Shown here: positions 7,684-49,200 of the stretch, piece by piece | Layout: each line of letters starts with the position of its first letter | Numbering within the stretch: position 1 is the stretch's first letter | Made by a program: the position numbers and the translations under genes | DNA from: Sphingobacteriaceae bacterium | GTDB lineage: Bacteria; Bacteroidota; Bacteroidia; UBA7662 | Reading direction: 5' to 3' | NCBI GenBank assembly: GCA_030682795.1 | Contig: JAUXNJ010000006.1 | Location: forward strand, 1-50,896 | DNA: 50,896 nt | The notes under the pieces: model-generated | The model's database searches: none | The model's input: the letters and a program-made list of their open reading frames with translations, nothing else | What the model was told of the DNA's origin: nothing

Positions 7684-8991
7684 CTACAGGGCCTTTGACT
7701 GTTCAATATCGACACTTGCTACGAGGCGCTTGCGTAGTACATCCATACCAACATCACCTATACTTCCAGCATGGGAATGTTGTAGCTCAGCTTTCCAGCT
7801 GAAGGTGCCATCCGAAACCTCGGCCGCCACGCTTCGATAGGCATCGCGAAACGACTGGCCTTGTAAAACGCGGGCGTTCACGGCTTCAACTGTAAAAACC
7901 GACTGATACAGCGGGTCTTGGAGGATGTTTGGCCTTACTTGTAGCACCTCCACCCCTTTTTTGGCGATAAATAGCAGGGCTTCCATGCGGTCGATGGCCG
8001 GAAAAACAGCTTCTTTCAACAACTGAAACTCGCGGTGATAGCCTGTGGGCAGGTTGGAAGTGAGCAACCGCACTTCATTGGGCAGGGCTTGGAGGCGGTT
8101 GGCATGACCGCGCAGCAGCTCCCACACATCTGGATTTTTTTTGTGCGGCATGATGCTAGAGCCGGTGGTAAAGGCGTCGGGCAGCACGAAAAATCGGAAT
8201 TCCTGGCCGTTGTACAAACAAATGTCCATGGCCAATCGTCCCAACCCATGCGCCAGCTCGGCCAGCCATTGGGTGAGCAGGCGCTCGTTTTTACCCCTGC
8301 TGTATTGCGCGGCAATGGCGTTGTAGTGCAAGCCGTTGAAGCCCAACAGCTCGGCGGTAAAGGCGCGGTCTAAAGGAAAAGAAGTACCATAACCTGCCCC
8401 ACTGCCGAGTGGATTGCGGCCCAGGTATTGGAGCACTCCCTCGCTTTGTTCGAGGTCGTTGAGCAGGTTTTCGGCATGACCGGCAAACCACTGCGCAAAT
8501 GAGGAGGGCATGGCCGTTTGCATATGGGTATAGCCCGGCATGAGGTGCCCTTGATGTTTTTCGGCGGCATCGAGCAGACTGCTCACGAGGGCAGCCAAAT
8601 TGGCACGCAGTTGGTTCACTGCCGCACGGTAATACAAAGCCAAGGCCACCAGCACCTGGTCGTTGCGCGAACGACCGCTGTGAATTTTCTTGCCCACCTC
8701 GCCCAAACGCGCCGTGAGCATGCCTTCGAGTTGCGAATGGATGTCTTCTACCCCTTCATCGAGCTTAAAACCGGGCTGCTGCACCTCCTCGTACAAAACA
8801 TCAAAAGCTGGTGCCAGCTGCTGCCATTCTGCTTGGGTTAACAAGCCTACCTTGCACAACATCTGCGCATGGGCCTTGCTGGCCAGTACGTCGTAAGGCG
8901 CCAGGCGCAAATCGAGTTCGCGGTCTTGGCCAATGGTGAAGGCTTCTATGTCGGCATCGAGGCTTTGGCCTTTGTCCCAAAGTTTTTTCAT
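7684..8991 (-). CDS. argH: Argininosuccinate lyase
   Basis: A 435-residue enzyme that splits argininosuccinate into arginine and fumarate, the last step of arginine synthesis. Fumarase/aspartase-superfamily motifs are present: the signature SSIMPHKKNPD near residue 270, SGRSRNDQV near 115, and GYTHMQTAMP near 160. The reading frame extends upstream to 9336, but the true start is the ATG at 8991 (MKKLWDKG). It overlaps the stop of the upstream argB-argE gene by ATGA, and the extra N-terminal residues are an antisense-type shadow of that gene. Last gene of the arginine operon; the inverted repeat at 7556-7616 lies 68 bases downstream. Confidence 0.95.
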   Translation of the reverse strand: MKKLWDKGQSLDADIEAFTIGQDRELDLRLAPYDVLASKAHAQMLCKVGLLTQAEWQQLAPAFDVLYEEVQQPGFKLDEGVEDIHSQLEGMLTARLGEVGKKIHSGRSRNDQVLVALALYYRAAVNQLRANLAALVSSLLDAAEKHQGHLMPGYTHMQTAMPSSFAQWFAGHAENLLNDLEQSEGVLQYLGRNPLGSGAGYGTSFPLDRAFTAELLGFNGLHYNAIAAQYSRGKNERLLTQWLAELAHGLGRLAMDICLYNGQEFRFFVLPDAFTTGSSIMPHKKNPDVWELLRGHANRLQALPNEVRLLTSNLPTGYHREFQLLKEAVFPAIDRMEALLFIAKKGVEVLQVRPNILQDPLYQSVFTVEAVNARVLQGQSFRDAYRSVAAEVSDGTFSWKAELQHSHAGSIGDVGMDVLRKRLVASVDIEQSKAL

Positions 8992-10853
8992 GGTAGCAAT
9001 AAGGGTTGAAGCAGGCGGCTGTAGAGCGCTACCCCTGCCTGCAATTGTTCTACATAAATAAATTCGTTGGCGGTATGCGAGCGGGCGGAGTCGCCGGGAC
9101 CCAACTTGGCCGAGGGCACCGGCATGAGCGCCTGGTCGGAAGTAGTGGGGGAACCGTAGCAGTGCATGCCCAGCTTTTCGGCCTGCAGGCGCAAGGGATG
9201 GCCGCTGGGCAAATGCGATGGGCGCAAGCGGCAAGAACGCGGCTGCAGCTCGGCTAGCAAATGCTTTTGCAGGATTTCGAGCACTTCTTCGTGGGTATAG
9301 CAGTCGTTGAGACGAATGTCGAGCGTATAGCGGCAAGTGCCGGGCACCACATTGTGCTGGCTCCCCGCCGCAATGATGGTAGCGGTCATTTTCACCGGGC
9401 CCAGCGTATCGGATAGCCGCTCAAAGCGGTAGTTGCGCACCCATTCCAAATCGGCGAGGGCTTTGTAGAGGGCATTGTCGCCTTCTTCGCGGGCGGCATG
9501 ACCGGCTTGGCCGTGAACGGTGGCATCTACCACCAGCAGGCCTTTTTCGGCTACAGCCAGCTCGCCGCTGGTAGGCTCTCCCACCAAGGCAAAATCGATG
9601 GCTGGCAAATGCGACCAAACCAACTCCACCCCGCCTGAGCCACTGTTTTCTTCTTCGGCTGAGGCCAAAAAGCAAAGGTTGTAGGCCAGATTGGGCGCCG
9701 CTTCGAAGGCCAAAAAGGTAAAAATGAGGCTCACCAAAGCGCCGCCGGCATCGTTGCTTCCGAGTCCATATAATTTACCATCCATCACTTCGGGCAACCA
9801 AGGATCGCGGGTGTATTGGGCATTGGGCTTCACCGTGTCGAGGTGCGAATTGAGCAAGATCGTGGGTTTTTGGGCATCGAAATGCTTGTTCACGCACCAG
9901 AGGTTGTTGCCCAGGCGCTTGGTTTGAATGCCTTTGGTAGCCAACCAGGCTTGTAGCCCATCGGCCTTGGCAGCTTCTTCACCGCTGAAGGCGGGGATGC
10001 GCAAGAGTGCAGTGAGTAGTTCCAGCGGTGTTTCGGCGGTGAAGTCCGCTGGTTTTTTGCTGGCCATGATTTGTGTACCGCTGGCGTTTCCGGTAAAATG
10101 CCCGGCTAGTGCTTCGGCATGACAAATCCACACCTGCGAAACGCCTTTTTCGGCGGCCAGCAAAGCATTGTCGACCTTGGGCAAGATGCCGTCTTGGAGT
10201 ACACCTTCGGTCTTTAGCGTGCTTGCAGAAACTACATCGAGTTGTTCAATCAGGCTGACCGTATCCTTTACATCACGCAGCAATCCAGGTAACGAAAAGG
10301 CATAAAGCAATCGTACTTCGTAACGGCTTTGCAAGGCAATGGCGAGCTGCGCCGCCAGGGTATCGGCATTGGTGTTGAGGAGCTGTCCCGATGCATCGGC
10401 ACTCAAAGGCGCCACTACAGGAGTATAACCAGCCTCCAGCAGTCCCACCCAGCGGTCTACCGGCAGTTTTTCGGGCAACAAATCGCCTACCCAGCCGAAA
10501 TCAACCTCACCCACAGGACGTTTTTGGGCGGGCAGCAAGCCTGCATCGGCACCACAGAGGCCCAAGACAGTTCTTCCACCTGCACTGAGGGCGGCAGTGA
10601 GCTGTTTGTTGAGCAATCCGCCGTACACCATGGTCACCAGTTCCAAAGTAGCAGCATCGGTAATGCGCCGGCCCTGGTGGTACTGCGGCTCGAGGCCCAG
10701 GCGCTTGCCCATTTCGCTGGCAATTTTGCCACCGCCGTGTACCACCAAAAGGGAATGCTCGCAGGTTTGCAACTGCTGCAGCGTGGCGGCGTACAAGCTG
10801 GGATCATCGAGCACTTCGCCGCCTAATTTGACCACATACAACACCTTTTTCAT
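8988..10853 (-). CDS. argB-argE: Fused N-acylglutamate kinase and N-acylornithine/-citrulline deacylase (ArgB-ArgE)
   Basis: A single 621-residue chain. Residues 1-262 are an amino-acid kinase of the ArgB family (KLGGEV at the start, VVHGGGK at 38-43, a nucleotide-binding GVLQDGILPKVDNAL, family end GTQI). Residues 270-621 are an M20 zinc deacylase of the ArgE/DapE type: His337 and Asp339 in NSHLDT, Asp368 in GSNDAGG, Glu400-401 in SAEEENSG. There is no stop or frameshift between the halves; the seam is around GTQIMASKK. ArgB phosphorylates N-acylglutamate. The deacylase releases the acyl group late in the pathway, in Bacteroidota probably from N-acylcitrulline. These two genes are normally separate neighbours, so the fusion may come from loss of the intervening stop and start. 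ATGA overlaps on both sides. Confidence 0.93.
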   Translation of the reverse strand: MKKVLYVVKLGGEVLDDPSLYAATLQQLQTCEHSLLVVHGGGKIASEMGKRLGLEPQYHQGRRITDAATLELVTMVYGGLLNKQLTAALSAGGRTVLGLCGADAGLLPAQKRPVGEVDFGWVGDLLPEKLPVDRWVGLLEAGYTPVVAPLSADASGQLLNTNADTLAAQLAIALQSRYEVRLLYAFSLPGLLRDVKDTVSLIEQLDVVSASTLKTEGVLQDGILPKVDNALLAAEKGVSQVWICHAEALAGHFTGNASGTQIMASKKPADFTAETPLELLTALLRIPAFSGEEAAKADGLQAWLATKGIQTKRLGNNLWCVNKHFDAQKPTILLNSHLDTVKPNAQYTRDPWLPEVMDGKLYGLGSNDAGGALVSLIFTFLAFEAAPNLAYNLCFLASAEEENSGSGGVELVWSHLPAIDFALVGEPTSGELAVAEKGLLVVDATVHGQAGHAAREEGDNALYKALADLEWVRNYRFERLSDTLGPVKMTATIIAAGSQHNVVPGTCRYTLDIRLNDCYTHEEVLEILQKHLLAELQPRSCRLRPSHLPSGHPLRLQAEKLGMHCYGSPTTSDQALMPVPSAKLGPGDSARSHTANEFIYVEQLQAGVALYSRLLQPLLLP

Positions 10854-11794
10854 GGCTGCAGGAGGTTAGCCAGGGTGGCTTGCGCAGCCCAAATGCGGTT
10901 TTCGGCTTGTTCGAGGTGCAAGGCGCGGGGCCCATCGAGCAGTTCGTCGGCCAGTACCACATTGCGGCGCACGGGTAAACAGTGCATGATGTGGGCGGCG
11001 CTGCCCTGGAGTTGCTGCTCGCTGAGCATCCATGCCGGGTCGCTGCTTATTTGACCGTAAGGGGTAGTTGCCGACCAGTTTTTTACATAAATAAAATCGG
11101 CCTCGGCCAGGGCCGCTTCAGGGGTATGGTGAAGCTGTGCGCCGGTTGAGAATTCTGGTTGCAGTTCAAAGCCGGCGGGCTGACCGATGTGCAATTCCAC
11201 TTGCGGGTCGGCCAACATCCATTCGGCAAACGAATTGGGTACCGCTTGTGGCAAGGCACGTACATGGGGTGCCCAGCGCAGCAGCACTTTGATTTTACGG
11301 TTTTGTGGTGCCCGATCGCGGATGGTGAGCCAGTCGGCCAGACTTTGCAGCGGGTGACGCGTGGCGCTTTCGAGGTTCAGCAGCGGCTTGCGGGCATAGG
11401 AGGCAAATTGCTGGAAAAGGGCATCGGCGCGGTCGGTTTCGGCATCCTGCAAACCCGCAAAACTGCGTAGGCCCAGCACATCGCAATAGCGACCCAAAAC
11501 GCCAGCGGCTTCTTTCAGGTGCTCGGCTGCACCACCATCCATTACGGCTCCTTCACGGGTTTCAATGGTCCAGCCGTCCTGGTTCATATTCATCACCAGT
11601 ACCTCCAAATCGAGGTTACGGGCTGCAATTTGGGTACTCAATCGGGTGCGCAAACTGGCATTAAAAAATACCAAGCCGAGGGTTTTTCCAGTACCCAAAC
11701 CAAAATCGCGGCGGGGTTGCGCGCGGTAAGCACGGGCCTGGGCCAAGAGGGCTTCGCCGTCGACTACATCGGCCCGACTAAAAAACTGCTTCAT
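10850..11794 (-). CDS. argF': N-acylornithine carbamoyltransferase (Bacteroidota ArgF' type)
   Basis: A 314-residue transcarbamylase. FFNASLRTRLSTQ (43-55) is the carbamoyl-phosphate loop of the N-acetyl/N-succinylornithine branch, HPLQSLADW follows, and MHCLPVRRN is near 275. ATG at 11794 is the start because it overlaps the argD stop (ATGA) and yields MKQFFS, as in relatives. The specificity residue, Pro90 in the succinylornithine enzyme of Bacteroides fragilis and Glu92 in the acetylornithine enzyme of Xanthomonas, is Ala90 here (MDGGAAEHL). As I recall, replacing that Glu by small or uncharged residues shifts specificity to succinylornithine, so Ala favours N-succinyl substrates; this is inference. 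The carbamoyl-phosphate loop also has Ala46 where relatives have Pro. Confidence 0.92.
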   Translation of the reverse strand: MKQFFSRADVVDGEALLAQARAYRAQPRRDFGLGTGKTLGLVFFNASLRTRLSTQIAARNLDLEVLVMNMNQDGWTIETREGAVMDGGAAEHLKEAAGVLGRYCDVLGLRSFAGLQDAETDRADALFQQFASYARKPLLNLESATRHPLQSLADWLTIRDRAPQNRKIKVLLRWAPHVRALPQAVPNSFAEWMLADPQVELHIGQPAGFELQPEFSTGAQLHHTPEAALAEADFIYVKNWSATTPYGQISSDPAWMLSEQQLQGSAAHIMHCLPVRRNVVLADELLDGPRALHLEQAENRIWAAQATLANLLQP

Positions 11795-12921
11795 AAGGCC
11801 ACCTCCTTGCTCAAATATTGCAGTGCTTCGGCGAAACAAGCCGTTTCTTCGGTCCCAATGCCCAGTGATGGTAATAAACGCAGGGTGCGCACACCCGCCT
11901 CTCCCGTAAAAATATGGTGCTGCTCGAGCAATTGCTGCTTGAGCGGCAGTCCCTCCGGCGCTTCAAAACCCAGCATCAGGCCGCGTCCCCGCACGGGCGT
12001 AATGCCCGGGAATACCGACAGCATTTGTCTGATCACCTGCTCTTGCCGCAAGGCATTCTCTAAAAGCTCTTCTTGTTCTAAAACCTCCAAAACTGCCAAG
12101 GCAGCGGCGCAGGCCAGGTAATTACCACCAAAAGTAGTGCCCAGCATGCCACTCCAAGCGGCTATTTCGGGCGAAATGAGCACCCCTCCCACTGGAAAAC
12201 CGTTGCCCATGCCCTTGGCCATGGTGATGAGGGGCGGCCGGATGCCCGCCCATTGGTGCGCAAAAAATTGGCCGGTGCGTCCGCAACCGCTTTGCACCTC
12301 ATCGAGGATGAGCAAGATATTGCGCTGCGTACATAAACGTTCGAGTTCCTGCAAAAAGGCCGTGTTGGGTTCGTGAATGCCACCCACGCCTTGGATGCCT
12401 TCGATGAGCACCGCGCCAATGGTCGCATCCAGGCCTTCATCGAGGGCCGAAATGTCGTTCCAGGGCAAAAAGCGCACTTGGTGACCAGCATTTACCGGCG
12501 CAACAATTTTGGGATTGTCGGTAGCCGCCACCGCCGCCGAAGTACGCCCGTGAAAGGCTTTGCTAAAGGCCACCACTCCCGCCTTGCCAGTGACAAAAGA
12601 GGCTATTTTGAGGGCATTTTCGTTGGCTTCGGCGCCCGAATTGCACAAAAACAGACTGTAATCGGGATAGCCGCTTTGTTTGGCCAAACGCTCCGCCAAC
12701 GCTTCCTGCAACGGATTTTGGATGCTGTTGCTGTAAAACGAAATGCGGCCAAGCTGGTTTTGCAGGGCATCCACCCAATGTGGGTGGTTGTGTCCAATGC
12801 TGATCACAGCATGTCCCCCGTAAAAATCGAGGTAACGCTGCCCTTTTTCATCCCACAACCACGAGCCATTGGCTTTTACCGGGGTAATGGGCTGTAATTT
12901 ATAAACGTCGAATAAGGCCAT
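11791..12921 (-). CDS. argD: N-acylornithine aminotransferase
   Basis: A 376-residue class-III PLP aminotransferase. It makes N-acylornithine from N-acylglutamate semialdehyde and glutamate. Seen: YLDFYGGHAV near the start, NSGAEANENALK (about 93-104), LILDEVQSGCGRTG with the PLP-ring Asp, and the Schiff-base Lys in TMAKGMGNGFPVGG. Its length is at the short end of the family. The stop overlaps the argF' start (ATGA). The gap from argC is four bases. Confidence 0.94.
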   Translation of the reverse strand: MALFDVYKLQPITPVKANGSWLWDEKGQRYLDFYGGHAVISIGHNHPHWVDALQNQLGRISFYSNSIQNPLQEALAERLAKQSGYPDYSLFLCNSGAEANENALKIASFVTGKAGVVAFSKAFHGRTSAAVAATDNPKIVAPVNAGHQVRFLPWNDISALDEGLDATIGAVLIEGIQGVGGIHEPNTAFLQELERLCTQRNILLILDEVQSGCGRTGQFFAHQWAGIRPPLITMAKGMGNGFPVGGVLISPEIAAWSGMLGTTFGGNYLACAAALAVLEVLEQEELLENALRQEQVIRQMLSVFPGITPVRGRGLMLGFEAPEGLPLKQQLLEQHHIFTGEAGVRTLRLLPSLGIGTEETACFAEALQYLSKEVAL

Positions 12922-12925
12922 ACTA

Positions 12926-13888
12926 CTAAAATGCGCCGGATTTAAGCCGCAATCCCGCGGTCTCCGACAGTTGAAACATCAGATTCATATTTTGCACGGC
13001 TTGTCCCGCCGCACCCTTCAACAAATTGTCGAGGGCCACATGCACCACGGCCTGCTCACCCACTTTTTCGAGCGCCAGCAAGGCATGGTTGGTTTGCAAA
13101 ACCTGTTTGAGGTCGAGCGAGCCCTTGGCCAAAGCCGTGAAGGGATGGCCGGCATAATAGGCCGCATAATGACTGTTCAGTGCATCGAGCGAAAGTGCTG
13201 TTTTGAACTGCAGACTGGCAAAAATGCCGCGGGTAAAATCGCCACGCCAGGGCACAAAATGCAGGTTTTGATAGGCAGCACCCCCGCTTTTCGATAGCGT
13301 TTGCTGTACTTCGGCCAGGTGCTGGTGCTGCAAACTTTTATAAGCGGCCAGGTTGTTGGCTCGCCAACTGAAATGGCTCGTTTCGCCTAAAGACCGGCCA
13401 GCGCCGGTGCTGCCGGTGATGCCCGTGGCATGCACTTCGGCTAATTCTCCTGCTGCTGCCAGCGGCAACAAAGCCAGTTGGAGGGCCGTAGCAAAACAAC
13501 CGGGATTGGCTACATACCTGGCTTCGGCAATGCGCTCGCGCTGAAACTCGGGCAGACCATACACAAAGCCTTCCTTTTCGTCCAACCTAAAATCCTGACT
13601 CATATCGATCACCTTTAAGCCGGCCGGCAGCTTGTTTTGTTGCCACCATTGCAGCGATTCGCCATGACCAAGTGCCAAAAAAACCAGGTCTACGGCCGAT
13701 AAATCGCCTTCAGACACAAAAGCACCATCGCCCAGCAAGGCTAAATCGGGATGGGCCGCCGACCAAGGCTGAGCTGCTAAATGCCTGCTTTGTGCAAAAA
13801 CCACCTGCAACTGTGGGTGGAGCAAAAGCAGTCGGAGCAATTCTCCGCCTACATAACCTGCCGCGCCAATCACGCCAATACGTATCAT
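12926..13888 (-). CDS. argC: N-acyl-gamma-glutamyl-phosphate reductase
   Basis: A 320-residue enzyme that reduces N-acylglutamyl phosphate to the semialdehyde with NADPH. The N-terminus MIRIGVIGAAGYVGGELLRL is the Rossmann nucleotide-binding fold (GxxGxxG). The catalytic Cys is in ANPGCFATA, followed by GSTGAGRSL and a C-terminal FVPW segment of the family. The ATG at 13888 overlaps the argG stop (ATGA at 13885-13888). Confidence 0.95.
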   Translation of the reverse strand: MIRIGVIGAAGYVGGELLRLLLLHPQLQVVFAQSRHLAAQPWSAAHPDLALLGDGAFVSEGDLSAVDLVFLALGHGESLQWWQQNKLPAGLKVIDMSQDFRLDEKEGFVYGLPEFQRERIAEARYVANPGCFATALQLALLPLAAAGELAEVHATGITGSTGAGRSLGETSHFSWRANNLAAYKSLQHQHLAEVQQTLSKSGGAAYQNLHFVPWRGDFTRGIFASLQFKTALSLDALNSHYAAYYAGHPFTALAKGSLDLKQVLQTNHALLALEKVGEQAVVHVALDNLLKGAAGQAVQNMNLMFQLSETAGLRLKSGAF

Positions 13889-15090
13889 AACTTCCCCTCC
13901 GTTTTCCGTCCAAGCTGCGCATGCATGCGTATTTGGTTGCCGTAAATGCGGGTAAATCCAGCCACATCGGCACCGGTCCAGCCCCGGTTCATCTCGCCAT
14001 AACTGCCAAATTCAGGCGCCATGAGGTCGAAATCACTTTCGATACCCAGCACTTCGAAGCGGTAGGGATGCAAACGCAGGTGTACCTTGCCGGTAACCCG
14101 CTGCTGACTGCTCAACAGCAAGGCTTCGAGGTCGCGCATCACCGGATCGAGGTACAAGCCTTCGTGCACAAAATTGCCATAGAACGAGCCAACTTGCTCT
14201 TTCCACTGCAGCTGCCATTTGCTGAGCACGTGCTTTTCGAGGGCCAAATGCGCCTTGATGATGAGCACCGGCGCGGCGGCTTCAAATCCCACGCGTCCTT
14301 TGATGCCGATGATGGTATCACCCACGTGGATGTCGCGACCAATGCCATAAGGTGCCGCCAAAGCCTGCAAGGCCCGGATGGCGTCGACTGGATGAGTAAA
14401 ATGTTGGTCGTTTAAGCCCACCAACTCCCCTTGTTTGAAAGAGAGCACCATGGTTACTGGCTCGGTAGCAGTTACCGGCGTAGGCCAGGCCGATTCGGGC
14501 AAGCTCCCCAGCGAGTTTAAGGTTTCGACCCCACCCACCGAAGTGCCCCATAAGCCTTGATTGATGCTGTAAGCAGCCTTTTGGGCATCAAAGGTGATGC
14601 CATCGGCTGCCAAGTAAGCCACTTCCTCAGCCCGCGAAAGCCGGAGCTCCCGAATGGGGGTAAGGATTTCAGCCTCAGGCAGCAGGGCCTGAAACACCAA
14701 ATCGAAACGCACCTGGTCGTTGCCAGCACCCGTGCTGCCATGTGCCAAGGCCGTAAAACCATGCTTTTGGGCATGTTCGGCCAGGGCAAGGGCCTGCGAC
14801 ATGCGTTCGGCACTCACGCTTAATGGATAGGTTTGATGGCGCAGCACATTGCCAAACACCAAAAACCGAATCACCCGCTCGTAATAATCGTGGGTGCAGT
14901 CGAGCGTGGTATGACTAACCGCGCCCAATTTATAAGCCTGGGCTTCGATGGCCTCCAGTTCTTCGGAAGAAAAACCACCAGTTTGTACGGTGGCCGTATG
15001 GACTTCATAGCCCTTGTCTTTTTGCAGATAACGTACACAAAAAGAAGTATCGAGCCCGCCACTGAAGGCGAGCAATATTTTATTGGTCAT
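13885..15090 (-). CDS. argG: Argininosuccinate synthase
   Basis: A 401-residue ATP-dependent ligase joining citrulline and aspartate. The N-terminal ATP-pyrophosphatase P-loop AFSGGLDTS is at residues 8-16. Other family blocks are HGSTGAGNDQVRF near 118 and SINQGLWG near 175. The C-terminal half carries GIKGRVGFEAAAP and HEGLYLDP. Length and motif order match the family. It is the first standard pathway gene in the operon, starting 21 bases after the acyltransferase gene. Confidence 0.95.
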   Translation of the reverse strand: MTNKILLAFSGGLDTSFCVRYLQKDKGYEVHTATVQTGGFSSEELEAIEAQAYKLGAVSHTTLDCTHDYYERVIRFLVFGNVLRHQTYPLSVSAERMSQALALAEHAQKHGFTALAHGSTGAGNDQVRFDLVFQALLPEAEILTPIRELRLSRAEEVAYLAADGITFDAQKAAYSINQGLWGTSVGGVETLNSLGSLPESAWPTPVTATEPVTMVLSFKQGELVGLNDQHFTHPVDAIRALQALAAPYGIGRDIHVGDTIIGIKGRVGFEAAAPVLIIKAHLALEKHVLSKWQLQWKEQVGSFYGNFVHEGLYLDPVMRDLEALLLSSQQRVTGKVHLRLHPYRFEVLGIESDFDLMAPEFGSYGEMNRGWTGADVAGFTRIYGNQIRMHAQLGRKTEGKL

Positions 15091-15111: not shown

Positions 15112-15816
15112 CTATTGCGACAAGTGTTGCTTTTTACTAGGCAAAAGCACATGCTGCTTAAACCTTAACCAGCGCTCGTACAGCTTGAAGTGTACGGCAA
15201 AAGGCCGCGATCGTCGTCGCAACAAGCCATCGGTTTTTGCACCAAGCCAACCTTTGCGTACCGACTGGCTGTTGGCCTCGGCAGGATCGTAGAGCATGCC
15301 GGTACACAGGCAGTTTTTGCGTTCCTTGGCTTGCAGAATATCGAAATTCACACAGCTCTGGCAGCCTGCCCAAAAAGACTCGTCGGTAGTTAATTCCGAA
15401 TAAGTAACTGGCTTGTAGCCCAAGGCAGAGTTAATTTTCATGACCGCTAGCCCTGTGGTTAGCCCAAAAATTTTGGATGCAGGGTATTTTTGGCGCGAGA
15501 GTTTAAAAATTTCGGCCTTGATGGCACGGGCTACCCCGCTGCCCCGAAATTCTGGTGAGACAATCAGCCCTGAGTTGGCCACGTAGCGGCCGTGTTCCCA
15601 GGCTTCAATGTAGCAAAAACCTACCCAAGAAGCATCTTTTGTCACGGCGATCACGGCTTTGCCCTCGAGCATCTTGGCTTTGATGTAAGCTGGTGTGCGC
15701 TTGGCAATGCCTGTCCCGCGGGCCTTGGCCGATGTTTCCATTTCTTGGGTAATTTGATCTGCATAATGCAAATCATTCCCTGTGGCCACCCTGACCACAA
15801 ATGGGTGTTTCGTCAC
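15112..15816 (-). CDS. GNAT acyltransferase heading the arginine operon; candidate N-acylglutamate synthase
   Basis: A 234-residue protein, first gene of the arginine operon. The GNAT acyl-CoA loop is visible as SPEFRGSGVARAI (RGSGVA at about 91-96). A C-terminal extension holds CQSC (152, 155) and CLC (169, 171), a spacing that could bind zinc. The operon has no ArgA or ArgJ, so this enzyme is the obvious candidate for the first step, acylation of glutamate by acetyl- or succinyl-CoA. A GNAT gene in the same position of Bacteroides has, as I recall, been assigned N-acylglutamate synthase from genetics. The start is GTG at 15816; no upstream in-frame ATG exists before a stop. The 180-base leader in front is strongly structured. 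Confidence 0.85.
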   Translation of the reverse strand: MTKHPFVVRVATGNDLHYADQITQEMETSAKARGTGIAKRTPAYIKAKMLEGKAVIAVTKDASWVGFCYIEAWEHGRYVANSGLIVSPEFRGSGVARAIKAEIFKLSRQKYPASKIFGLTTGLAVMKINSALGYKPVTYSELTTDESFWAGCQSCVNFDILQAKERKNCLCTGMLYDPAEANSQSVRKGWLGAKTDGLLRRRSRPFAVHFKLYERWLRFKQHVLLPSKKQHLSQ

Positions 15817-15998
15817 TTTTGTGAAGATTAAAAATGAAAATAATGTAGTGTTACGACCGATTTATACCCTCAGTCGGGGGAACGCGCAGCAATTTGGGCC
15901 TGGAGCAATCAGGCCAGCATTCGGCACCAGCGGGCATAAATGCCGTCTAAAGGCATTACAGTGCCGAAAGTAACGTTGGTATGGGGCTGCAAAAGCAT
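15817..15998 (-). promoter_or_regulatory. Structured leader of the arginine operon (three hairpins)
   Basis: Between the -7 box at 16003-16010 and the GTG at 15816, the minus strand can fold into three successive hairpins. Hairpin 1: TTCGGCAC (15968-15961) with GTGCCGAA (15927-15920), enclosing an inner perfect stem AATGCC/GGCATT (15957-15952 with 15944-15939). Hairpin 2: GGCCTG/CAGGCC (15915-15910 with 15902-15897). Hairpin 3: CGACTGA/TCGGTCG (15876-15870 with 15860-15854, one G-U pair). The last 38 bases before the start are unstructured and A/T-rich. No known riboswitch consensus was recognised. Attenuation or a ligand-sensing leader for arginine genes is inferred. Confidence 0.55.
15909..15998 (-). 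CDS. Possible 29-codon leader peptide in the arginine leader
   Basis: An open frame from ATG at 15998 to TGA at 15911-15909. It opens MLLQPHTNVTFGTV and ends ARWCRMLA. Two Arg codons (CGC, CGA) lie close to the end, inside the 3' arm of hairpin 1, and the TGA falls inside hairpin 2. Placement ahead of an arginine operon suggests an attenuator peptide. However, Arg codons are only two and not consecutive. The ATG lies five bases from the -7 box, so it might be leaderless or not transcribed at all. Low confidence. Confidence 0.3.
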   Translation of the reverse strand: MLLQPHTNVTFGTVMPLDGIYARWCRMLA

Positions 15999-16002
15999 GG
16001 GG

Positions 16003-16010
16003 CAAATATA
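16003..16010 (-). promoter_or_regulatory. Promoter -7 box of the arginine operon (TATATTTG)
   Basis: On the minus strand TATATTTG matches the Bacteroidota -7 consensus TAnnTTTG exactly. It is preceded by a ten-base A-tract (16021-16012 as read on that strand), which could serve as an upstream stimulating element. A -33 TTTG is not evident. Transcription would start near 15998-15995. Confidence 0.6.
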
Positions 16011-46200: not shown

Positions 46201-49200
46201 TGGTTTTTGAATAACCAATTGATTGCTGGCGCGAGTAGTACCACCTACAGTAAGTCGAACATCAGCACTGCGGATGCCGGTGTCTACAAAGCCCAAATTT
46301 TTTATTGCGATTCGGTGGTGACTTTCGACTCTATTTCGGTGCAAGTGAGCAACACCTTTTCGGCGGATGATGGCTTAACGCATTACTTCCCCTTCGATAA
46401 TTCACCAAACGAAATCATCACTGGAACTGCACCGGTATCGAGCAGCATCACCTATGGCAATGGGCGCCAAGCCACACAAGCAGCGGGCCGCAATGCCGTG
46501 ATGGCTGGTAATGGACTTACCTACAATGGCTTGAACGTGCCTACCGCCAATCAAGCCTTCAGCGTAAGTTTTTACCACCGTTTAGAGTTAACCTCAGCCT
46601 TTGGAACACTGCTCGAATGGACTTGGCCAAGCACTGGCACCAATGCCTTCCGCATCACCAGAAATGCGCTTTTTGGTTATCAATTAACTTTTGCAGGTCA
46701 AACCGACGTTGTAAACCTTACGGGAATCGGAACCTTTGATGCTTGGATTCATACAACCGTTACTTACGATGGTCAGGTGCTGCGGTGCTTCATTAACGGA
46801 CAACAGCAATTTGTTAAAAACATCAGTTGGCAAGCCAGCGGTACAGTACAGCTTCAAATTGGTAGGGGCGCCTCAGGCAATATCAATAGAATCAGTATTG
46901 ATGAAGTGCGTGTATACAACCGCGCTTTAAGTACGCAAGAAATCAATGTGCTCAAAGACCAACCAGAAGTGGTGTACACAGAGTCAACCTTGTCGAGCTG
47001 TGGATCAGATAGTCTTGTACTGGCAGCAACAGTTTTCCCATCCAATACCAATAATGGTTTCCAATGGCTGGCCGATGGTCAAGCGATTGCAGGTGCCACC
47101 AATCTGCAGCAGTCTATCCTGGCTGCCAACAATACCGCCCGTAAGTTTAAACTCAACACCAAACTCGCAGGTTGTTTTGAGATTGGAAGTGGCCAAATTG
47201 AAGTTGTCGACACCGTATCCATTACCAATGGCTTGCTCGATTTGTGGTCGTATGCCTTTAGCATTCCTCAAGGTGGTGGCACTGGAAATTTGTTTTACGC
47301 CAATGTATCGAGCTTTTCCAATGACAGATTCAACCGATCAAACGGTGCACTGCTCATCACAGCCAAAACCGCAGGTGCAACTTACGCTTTCGGTTCAGCG
47401 CAACCGCGGTTGAGTTATATGATTTGGTACCAACACAACCAAGCTGGCAATACCAATCAGTTGAGCACCCTTTTTAGCAACGATGCTTACAGTCACTTGT
47501 CGTTTTACAATGACAGATTAGTAGCCCCAGGAAACGCTAACAACCTCACTCCGCTTTCGAACGACACACTGGTCGACAACCAGTGGTACCATGTAGCCGT
47601 AACTTTCGAGGGAACTACCTACCGTTATTATTTAAATGGCCGTTTGATTGCTACCCGCACTGGACAGCCCAACATCGATAACAATCAAATCAATGGCATC
47701 TTTAACAGGAGCACCGTTGGCGGACAAGGAGCTTTGGGTGCGTTCAACGACCTGAGGGTATACAACTACCGGGTGAGTCCTAGTCTTCTCAACCAGCTTT
47801 ACTACCAACCGCTTTTAGCAACAGCTGGAAGCAGCAGTCTTTGCGAAGGAGGCAGTACTACCGAGCAAATGCGTGATCGCTATTTTCCAGCTAGTGCATT
47901 TCAATTCCAATGGTATAGAAACAACGTATTACTCGCGGGTTCAACAACTGATGCCCTTCAATTTTCAAACGTTAGTAGGACTGACAGTGGCGTTTATAGC
48001 GTAGAAGTTTCAGGCCCCTGTCTGAGTACTGCTCGCAGAAACCAATTCACTTTGAACGTACTACCTATTGCTCAAGTTTTAACACAGCCTACCAGCGTTA
48101 CCATTTGTACCGGTGACACACTGAGGGTGAACCTAAGTATAGACGAAAGCGTAGCCGTGAGTAGCGTTATTTGGTTTAACGCTGCAACTGGCAATAGTAG
48201 ATTCAGCAATCTGTTCAGCCAATCTGCGGTCGGAAACAGGAGTTTTGTGAAAGCCAATGCAAGCTTAGCCGATACTGGGCTCTATGTAGCACAAATCAGA
48301 ACAACTAGCGGGGGTTGCCAAATTTACAGCGACACCATCCGGGTGAGTATTAGCGCCCCTCCTAGCTTGCAACTAACTGCTTTAGACACAACTTTGTGCT
48401 TGGGCACCAATTTCAGTCTCGGTGGTTTAACGGGTGGCGGCACCACCAGTCGGCAGTGGCTCAAAAACGGCCAAGCCATTCCAGGTGCCACAGCCGATAC
48501 CCTCCAGCTCAGCAATCTTGATAGCACTGCTTCCGGTACTTATCGCTTGGTGGCCGTTGCAGGTTGTAGAACCGATACGAGCCAAAACATTGTGATTCGC
48601 CTGCGTGAAAACCTCAGCATCACCACCCAGCCACAAAGCCAAACCCTATGTGTGGGCGACACCCTGCAGCTCAGCGTGCAGCCGAGTATCTCAGCAGGAG
48701 TCCAAATTCAATGGTACAAAGATGGTGTGGCCATCAGCGGCGCCAACAATGCTACTTATTCCCTGGCCTCGGTTCAAAGCAGCTTAGAAGGGCTATACCA
48801 CGCCGAAGTCAGAGACCATTGTAAGGTTTTGCAATCTGACACGGCAACGGTGCTCATCAATGCCCTACCTGCCATCACCACACAGTCTGCTCGCTTGCAA
48901 ACGGTTTGTTTAGGCGACAGCATCAGCTTGAACGTGAGCGCTACCGGTGGTAGACTTCAATACCAGTGGTTCAAAAACGGCAGTTCGTTGAGCAACCAGC
49001 TAGCGGCTTCCCTGTCATTTAGCAGCATTACAGCGCAAGACAGCGGCAGCTATCGGTTACAAATCAGCAATTCTTGCGGACAAGTGTTTTCAGACACCTT
49101 CCAGCTTTTAGTGCCCGTTACCCCAATTGTAACCCAACAACCTGTGAGCGGTAGCTTTTGCCAAGGGGCTTCAGTTACCTTGACGGTGGCCGCCAATCAG

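Follow-up and report, generated by a model that had tools for sequence, protein, structure and literature searches.

The window, by which we mean the whole stretch of 50,896 nucleotides analyzed, contains on its minus strand a complete arginine biosynthesis operon headed by a gene for a GNAT-family N-acetyltransferase. A short reading frame lies between a promoter box and this first gene, and three hairpins are predicted in the same leader. The features are listed in the direction of transcription; L003 denotes the corresponding locus in a species of the same genus.

16003-16010, minus strand: -7 box TATATTTG, an exact match to the Bacteroidota consensus TAnnTTTG, 4 nt 5' of the leader ATG
15909-15998, minus strand: leader peptide frame MLLQPHTNVTFGTVMPLDGIYARWCRMLA, 29 codons plus TGA, near-leaderless, conserved in L003
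15920-15968, minus strand: hairpin 1 (predicted), 9 pairs plus a nested 6-pair hairpin, inside the leader frame
15930-15932, minus strand: putative arginine control codon CGC (codon 23), identical in L003
15921-15923, minus strand: putative arginine control codon CGA (codon 26), identical in L003
15897-15915, minus strand: hairpin 2 (predicted), GGCCTG/CAGGCC, arms 15915-15910/15902-15897
15854-15876, minus strand: hairpin 3 (predicted), CGACTGA/TCGGTCG, arms 15876-15870/15860-15854
15112-15816, minus strand: GNAT-family N-acetyltransferase, first structural gene, start GTG 15816 (PF13508/PF00583 matches)
7687-15090, minus strand: argG, argC, argD, carbamoyltransferase, argB-argE fusion and argH (Pfam matches, open reading frames)

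The preliminary description of this DNA had reported an exact -7 box upstream of the GTG of the first arginine gene and a 29-codon frame with arginine codons near its end, and both were borne out. The sequence CCCC separates the box from the leader ATG at 15998. The CGA codon, which is rare among the arginine codons of the window genes (7.9%), sits in the 3' arm of hairpin 1, and the leader stop TGA spans the 5' arm and loop of hairpin 2. Two arginine codons in one short frame are within chance for the window leader alone (p 0.54), and this leader reaches significance only through comparison with its relatives. In the operon itself, argB (amino acid kinase) and an argE-like M20 peptidase are fused in a 621-codon frame (8988-10853, minus strand). 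A frame of similar size (634 codons) occupies the same place in the same-genus species (L106, 6476-8380), so that a sequencing error is an unlikely cause of the fusion.

With the GNAT protein as query, we retrieved some 85 other loci, nearly all with argG adjoining. Only two of them, L003 (on the same contig as L021) and L004, fall in the window's own family. The operon's GNAT gene was not detected in the small genomes (1.2-2.2 Mb) of genera g2 and g3 of that family (G003, G004 and G006-G016), which are possibly arginine auxotrophs. The leader of L003 has the -7 box TATATTAG, CCCC and ATG with the same 4-nt spacing, and its peptide MLLQQHTNVSFGNVMSLDGIYARWCRMQA differs from that of the window by five amino-acid changes. 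The two frames differ by 13 nucleotide changes with a pN/pS of 0.29, a value based on small counts. The leader of L004, MTSTALSYNLHQRPAGTALVAAGMVRRYRGGARW, ends in ...MVRRYRGGARW before its stop codon, and the GTG start of the GNAT gene is retained in both loci.

The leader had also been described as structured, with three consecutive hairpins of which one is nested. The hairpins were indeed predicted at that place, the outer pairing of hairpin 1 being 15968-15960/15928-15920 and its nested pairing 15957-15952/15944-15939, whereas the total stability was no greater than that of shuffled sequences: the folding energy was -46.4 kcal/mol versus -41.5 ± 3.9 kcal/mol for the shuffles (z -1.25), and 21 of 200 shuffles were as stable or more so. 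In L003 the outer arms of hairpin 1 (TTCGGCA/TGCCGAA) are retained, the stem of hairpin 2 is identical and hairpin 3 shows one compensatory change (G-C to A-T); L004 has a different G+C stem (GGGCCCG/CGGGCCC) at the place of hairpin 2. Since the operon was found in only two family relatives, few changes bear on covariation of the window's own hairpins. Alternative pairings can be drawn in the window leader, with no covariation among them in the three sequences available. One candidate spotted by eye, a 10-pair long-range helix that would join ATTTATGCCC in codons 20-23 to GGGTATAAAT in the loop of hairpin 3, was set aside because two of its pairs are lost in L003.

A comparison of the window leader with the Rfam covariance models gave no match at the gathering score or at E values up to 10, which agrees with the earlier remark that no known riboswitch was recognizable; by these models the leader belongs to no riboswitch, T-box or other Rfam family. 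We also searched the window leader for an intrinsic terminator before the first gene and found none. Hairpin 3 lies approximately 32 nt past the leader stop and has no T run directly after it. Intrinsic terminators are typical of transcriptional attenuators and are absent from translational and Rho-dependent forms.

To compare leaders across Bacteroidota, we examined the 260 bases upstream of every GNAT start and took the ATG, GTG or TTG frame with the most arginine among its last 12 codons. The best frames at 84 loci had a mean of 3.32 arginine codons, versus 1.39 in dinucleotide shuffles, and at least 3 were present at 65 of the 84 loci. Because many of these loci are close kin, the analysis was repeated on 37 lineages with all amino acids tested. 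Arginine again stood out (3.22 versus 1.31, z 14), the next residue being proline at z 2.7, and the opposite strand of the same lineages gave a value of 1.89 for arginine. Examples of frame ends, each given up to the stop codon, are ...FRPRRPRR (L005), ...SFRRQIRI, ...CILRRLRV (L017), ...FLRRIPRRR (L073) and ...ARRPFSRRPARV (L014). The arginine codons are close to the leader stop in most relatives, and -7 boxes are found 200-350 nt upstream of the gene in most of them. No leader frame appeared in the scan at L011, L015, L020 and L072, which belong to ArgR-lacking genomes. In the arg leaders of the flavobacterial loci L074 and L075 two successive arginine-rich frames are present, the first of which starts 4 nt past the -7 box; those of L075 contain, for example, ...ILRLRNRRRLR... 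and, before the stop codon, ...SVRRIFRRRP.

The leader frames are conserved as coding sequence. Frame lengths are constant in one Cyclobacteriaceae set (44 codons) and nearly so in a second (42 codons, with one of 41), and the in-frame pN/pS of these two sets was 0.48 and 0.61, versus 0.78-1.43 in the other two frames. Between families nothing of the peptide sequence is conserved except the clustered arginine codons. CGA accounts for 31% of the arginine codons in the leaders (65 loci) versus 6.7% in the operon genes. This excess suggests that a rare codon was chosen as sensor, and a rare, presumably slow CGA would sharpen the response.

Hairpins downstream of the leader stop were found to covary in two other families. 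Among 14 Cyclobacteriaceae-type leaders, 9 of 11 pairs of a post-stop hairpin change on both sides, a result reached by none of 500 shuffles, and slid controls drop off. The position of hairpin 3 in the window resembles that of this covarying hairpin. Nine Chitinophagaceae-type leaders have a hairpin that starts at the stop codon; its pairing amounts to 96%, and 3 of its pairs vary on both sides. A pattern built from the latter hairpin matched 2 of 395 genomes and its reversed control none; the matches were the already known locus L093 and L105, the latter a further arg operon whose GNAT gene is preceded by a leader with the end ...SPRPRRGF. The preliminary description had proposed a check for covarying pairs in relatives, and its outcome was thus positive for these two families and limited to the few changes noted above for the window's own hairpins. 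The RNA structures differ from family to family, with no core common across lineages, and therefore do not represent one conserved aptamer. A terminator-like hairpin followed by a T run was present in 28% of the leaders versus 3% of the shuffles. In the arg leader of L007, unlike that of the window, a strong intrinsic terminator, GAAGGCTTGCCACTTGGCAGGCCTTTTTTATTT, occupies the region 128-154 nt upstream of the GNAT start.

A search of the window's genome (completeness rating 100%) for both domains of the arginine repressor ArgR found neither; control genomes including a Bacteroides gave matches. ArgR was present in only 5 of 55 genomes, most of which have arginine leaders, and these five correspond to loci without such a leader. 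Of 296 Bacteroidia genomes, 14 gave an ArgR match, one of them (G142) weak and with an internal stop; this genome has a leader ending in ...RYLAPRRF instead of argR upstream of the GNAT gene. In the ten other ArgR genomes that have the GNAT gene, GNAT-argG directly follows the ArgR match. At L094-L102 and L019, all in ArgR-bearing Bacteroidia, argR occupies the position taken elsewhere by the leader, directly 5' of GNAT-argG. At least 3 arginine codons were found at 1 of 14 ArgR loci (L099, a chance frame) versus 30 of 39 others, with a Fisher p of 6.5e-6 that is uncorrected for kinship and overstates the independent evidence, since kinship among the ArgR genomes is probable. As judged from these sequences, the arginine-codon leader and argR appear to be complementary across Bacteroidota.

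The same genome provides a positive control in the form of a histidine attenuator (L092, about 1190-1300; genome G000, contig C20) upstream of hisG at 47701. Its leader, MQFNRNHWHHHLHLLPAAWRGYAHG, starts a few bases past a -7-like sequence, and a strong textbook terminator, AAGGCTTGTCGGCAACGGCAAGCCTTTTTTT, precedes hisG. It is therefore most likely that this organism employs attenuation mediated by the ribosome.

We consider it likely that the window leader is a ribosome-mediated arginine attenuator. The earlier proposal that the leader senses arginine by attenuation is supported by the recurrent arginine-codon frames, the absence of ArgR and the covarying post-stop hairpins of relatives. Judging from the -7 box, the transcript would begin with the ATG at 15998 or a few bases upstream of it, and the leader peptide would be translated from a nearly leaderless mRNA. 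When arginyl-tRNA is ample, the ribosome would pass codons 23 and 26 and end at the TGA within hairpin 2. When charged arginyl-tRNA is scarce, it would stall at CGC or CGA and hold hairpin 1 open, and the hairpins left downstream (2 and 3) would form a different set. RNA polymerase, or a ribosome entering at GTG 15816, would then proceed into the operon, and the leader would in this manner substitute for the absent ArgR repressor. The frame, the arginine enrichment across the phylum, the coding conservation, the covarying post-stop hairpins of relatives and the absence of ArgR are computational results, from which we infer that the peptide is translated and that stalling raises expression. Since the window leader has two arginine codons, no intrinsic terminator and only two close relatives, the conversion of stalling into expression is likewise an inference, whether it proceeds by transcription termination (intrinsic or Rho-dependent) or by translation. 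Output at the level of transcription is somewhat more probable than not for the window; Rho-dependent termination and translational control are both possible.

In one alternative, a variant that differs in the output step, the frame would affect nothing but the translation of the first gene, by coupling or reinitiation and with no premature transcription termination; we regard it as rather unlikely. It would account for the lack of an intrinsic terminator in a genome whose his leader has one, and the arginine-sensing rbfL of Staphylococcus aureus does work on translation (PMC13009471). However, the leader stop is 92 nt before GTG 15816, which is far for reinitiation, the whole operon is the controlled unit, and terminator-like hairpins are present in some relatives (L007, L023 and L047). 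Another mode of sensing would be that of arrest peptides such as speFL or the fungal arginine attenuator peptide, in which the nascent chain detects free arginine or ornithine from within the exit tunnel and the ribosome stalls when the concentration is high and not when it is low. The window and L003 peptides are much alike, and the position of the arginine codons near the stop in most relatives would fit, but the conservation of clustered arginine codons alone between families and the preference for the rare CGA, as predicted for codon-speed sensing, make this explanation improbable. The evidence favours sensing of codon speed by the leader ribosome.

Two further explanations dispense with the reading frame altogether. 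A long 5' UTR of the ordinary kind, its hairpins unselected and its frame present by chance, would agree with the z value of -1.25 and with a number of arginine codons that is within chance, yet the phylum-wide enrichment in arginine, the maintenance of the frame at a pN/pS of 0.29 and the 4-nt distance between -7 box and start that both species of the genus share render such a coincidence very improbable. Least credible of all is an arginine riboswitch or other ligand-binding RNA, in which the hairpins would form an aptamer for arginine or a pathway intermediate and the small frame would be accidental. Such an RNA would be consistent with a long structured leader before a biosynthetic operon and with post-stop hairpins conserved in two other families; against it stand the absence of Rfam matches up to an E value of 10, the lack of a core between families, the ordinary stability and the fact that the common signal consists of in-frame arginine codons with coding-type substitution. 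The suggestion that this might be a new structured RNA that senses arginine directly is therefore not supported; the conserved element is a reading frame with arginine codons at its end.

The proposed ribosome-mediated attenuator resembles the classical attenuators (trp, his, leu and thr) in that a short frame containing cognate codons precedes the matching operon and is followed by hairpins, and differs from them in its arginine codons, its start near the 5' end and the lack of a clear intrinsic terminator. A comparative paper listed histidine, threonine and phenylalanine among the amino acids with attenuators, but arginine among those with T-boxes (PMC1262725). Within the same phylum, the main text on Flavobacterium psychrophilum reports leader-peptide attenuation before amino-acid operons, with TAnnTTTG promoters and the same proposed principle, but, unlike the window, gives no arginine leader (PMC9723704). 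The rbfL leader likewise senses arginine limitation via rare arginine codons; it differs in that it controls a biofilm regulator and that stalling covers the ribosome-binding site and lowers translation (PMC13009471). In the speF leader of Salmonella, alternative structures respond to the arginine level, as proposed here, but control ornithine decarboxylase and not an arginine biosynthesis operon (PMC6386406). In ArgR-bearing Bacteroidia, arginine-dependent regulation is presumed for the same GNAT-argG operon, although by a protein repressor that is absent from the window's genome. In the main texts and abstracts surveyed, no arginine leader was described for the arg operons of Bacteroidota; Lopatovskaya et al. 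2010 (cited in PMC4833913) reportedly treats attenuation of bacterial amino acid and aminoacyl-tRNA operons and could overlap with the present finding.

The usual account of bacterial arginine synthesis is one of repression by ArgR. The principle of attenuation is classical, and the window leader is probably one of a widespread set of arginine-codon leaders in Bacteroidota. As a tentative generalization, a translated, nearly leaderless arginine-codon leader would replace ArgR, at the same position, in Bacteroidota without this repressor, and in the window's lineage it would act without an intrinsic terminator, through a Rho-dependent or translational step. A large part of the phylum appears to use a codon-reading leader where other members keep argR, which predicts arginine regulation in many genomes with no known regulator. 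It would also offer a system in which to study how an operon that lacks a clear terminator is controlled by ribosomes stalled on a nearly leaderless leader.
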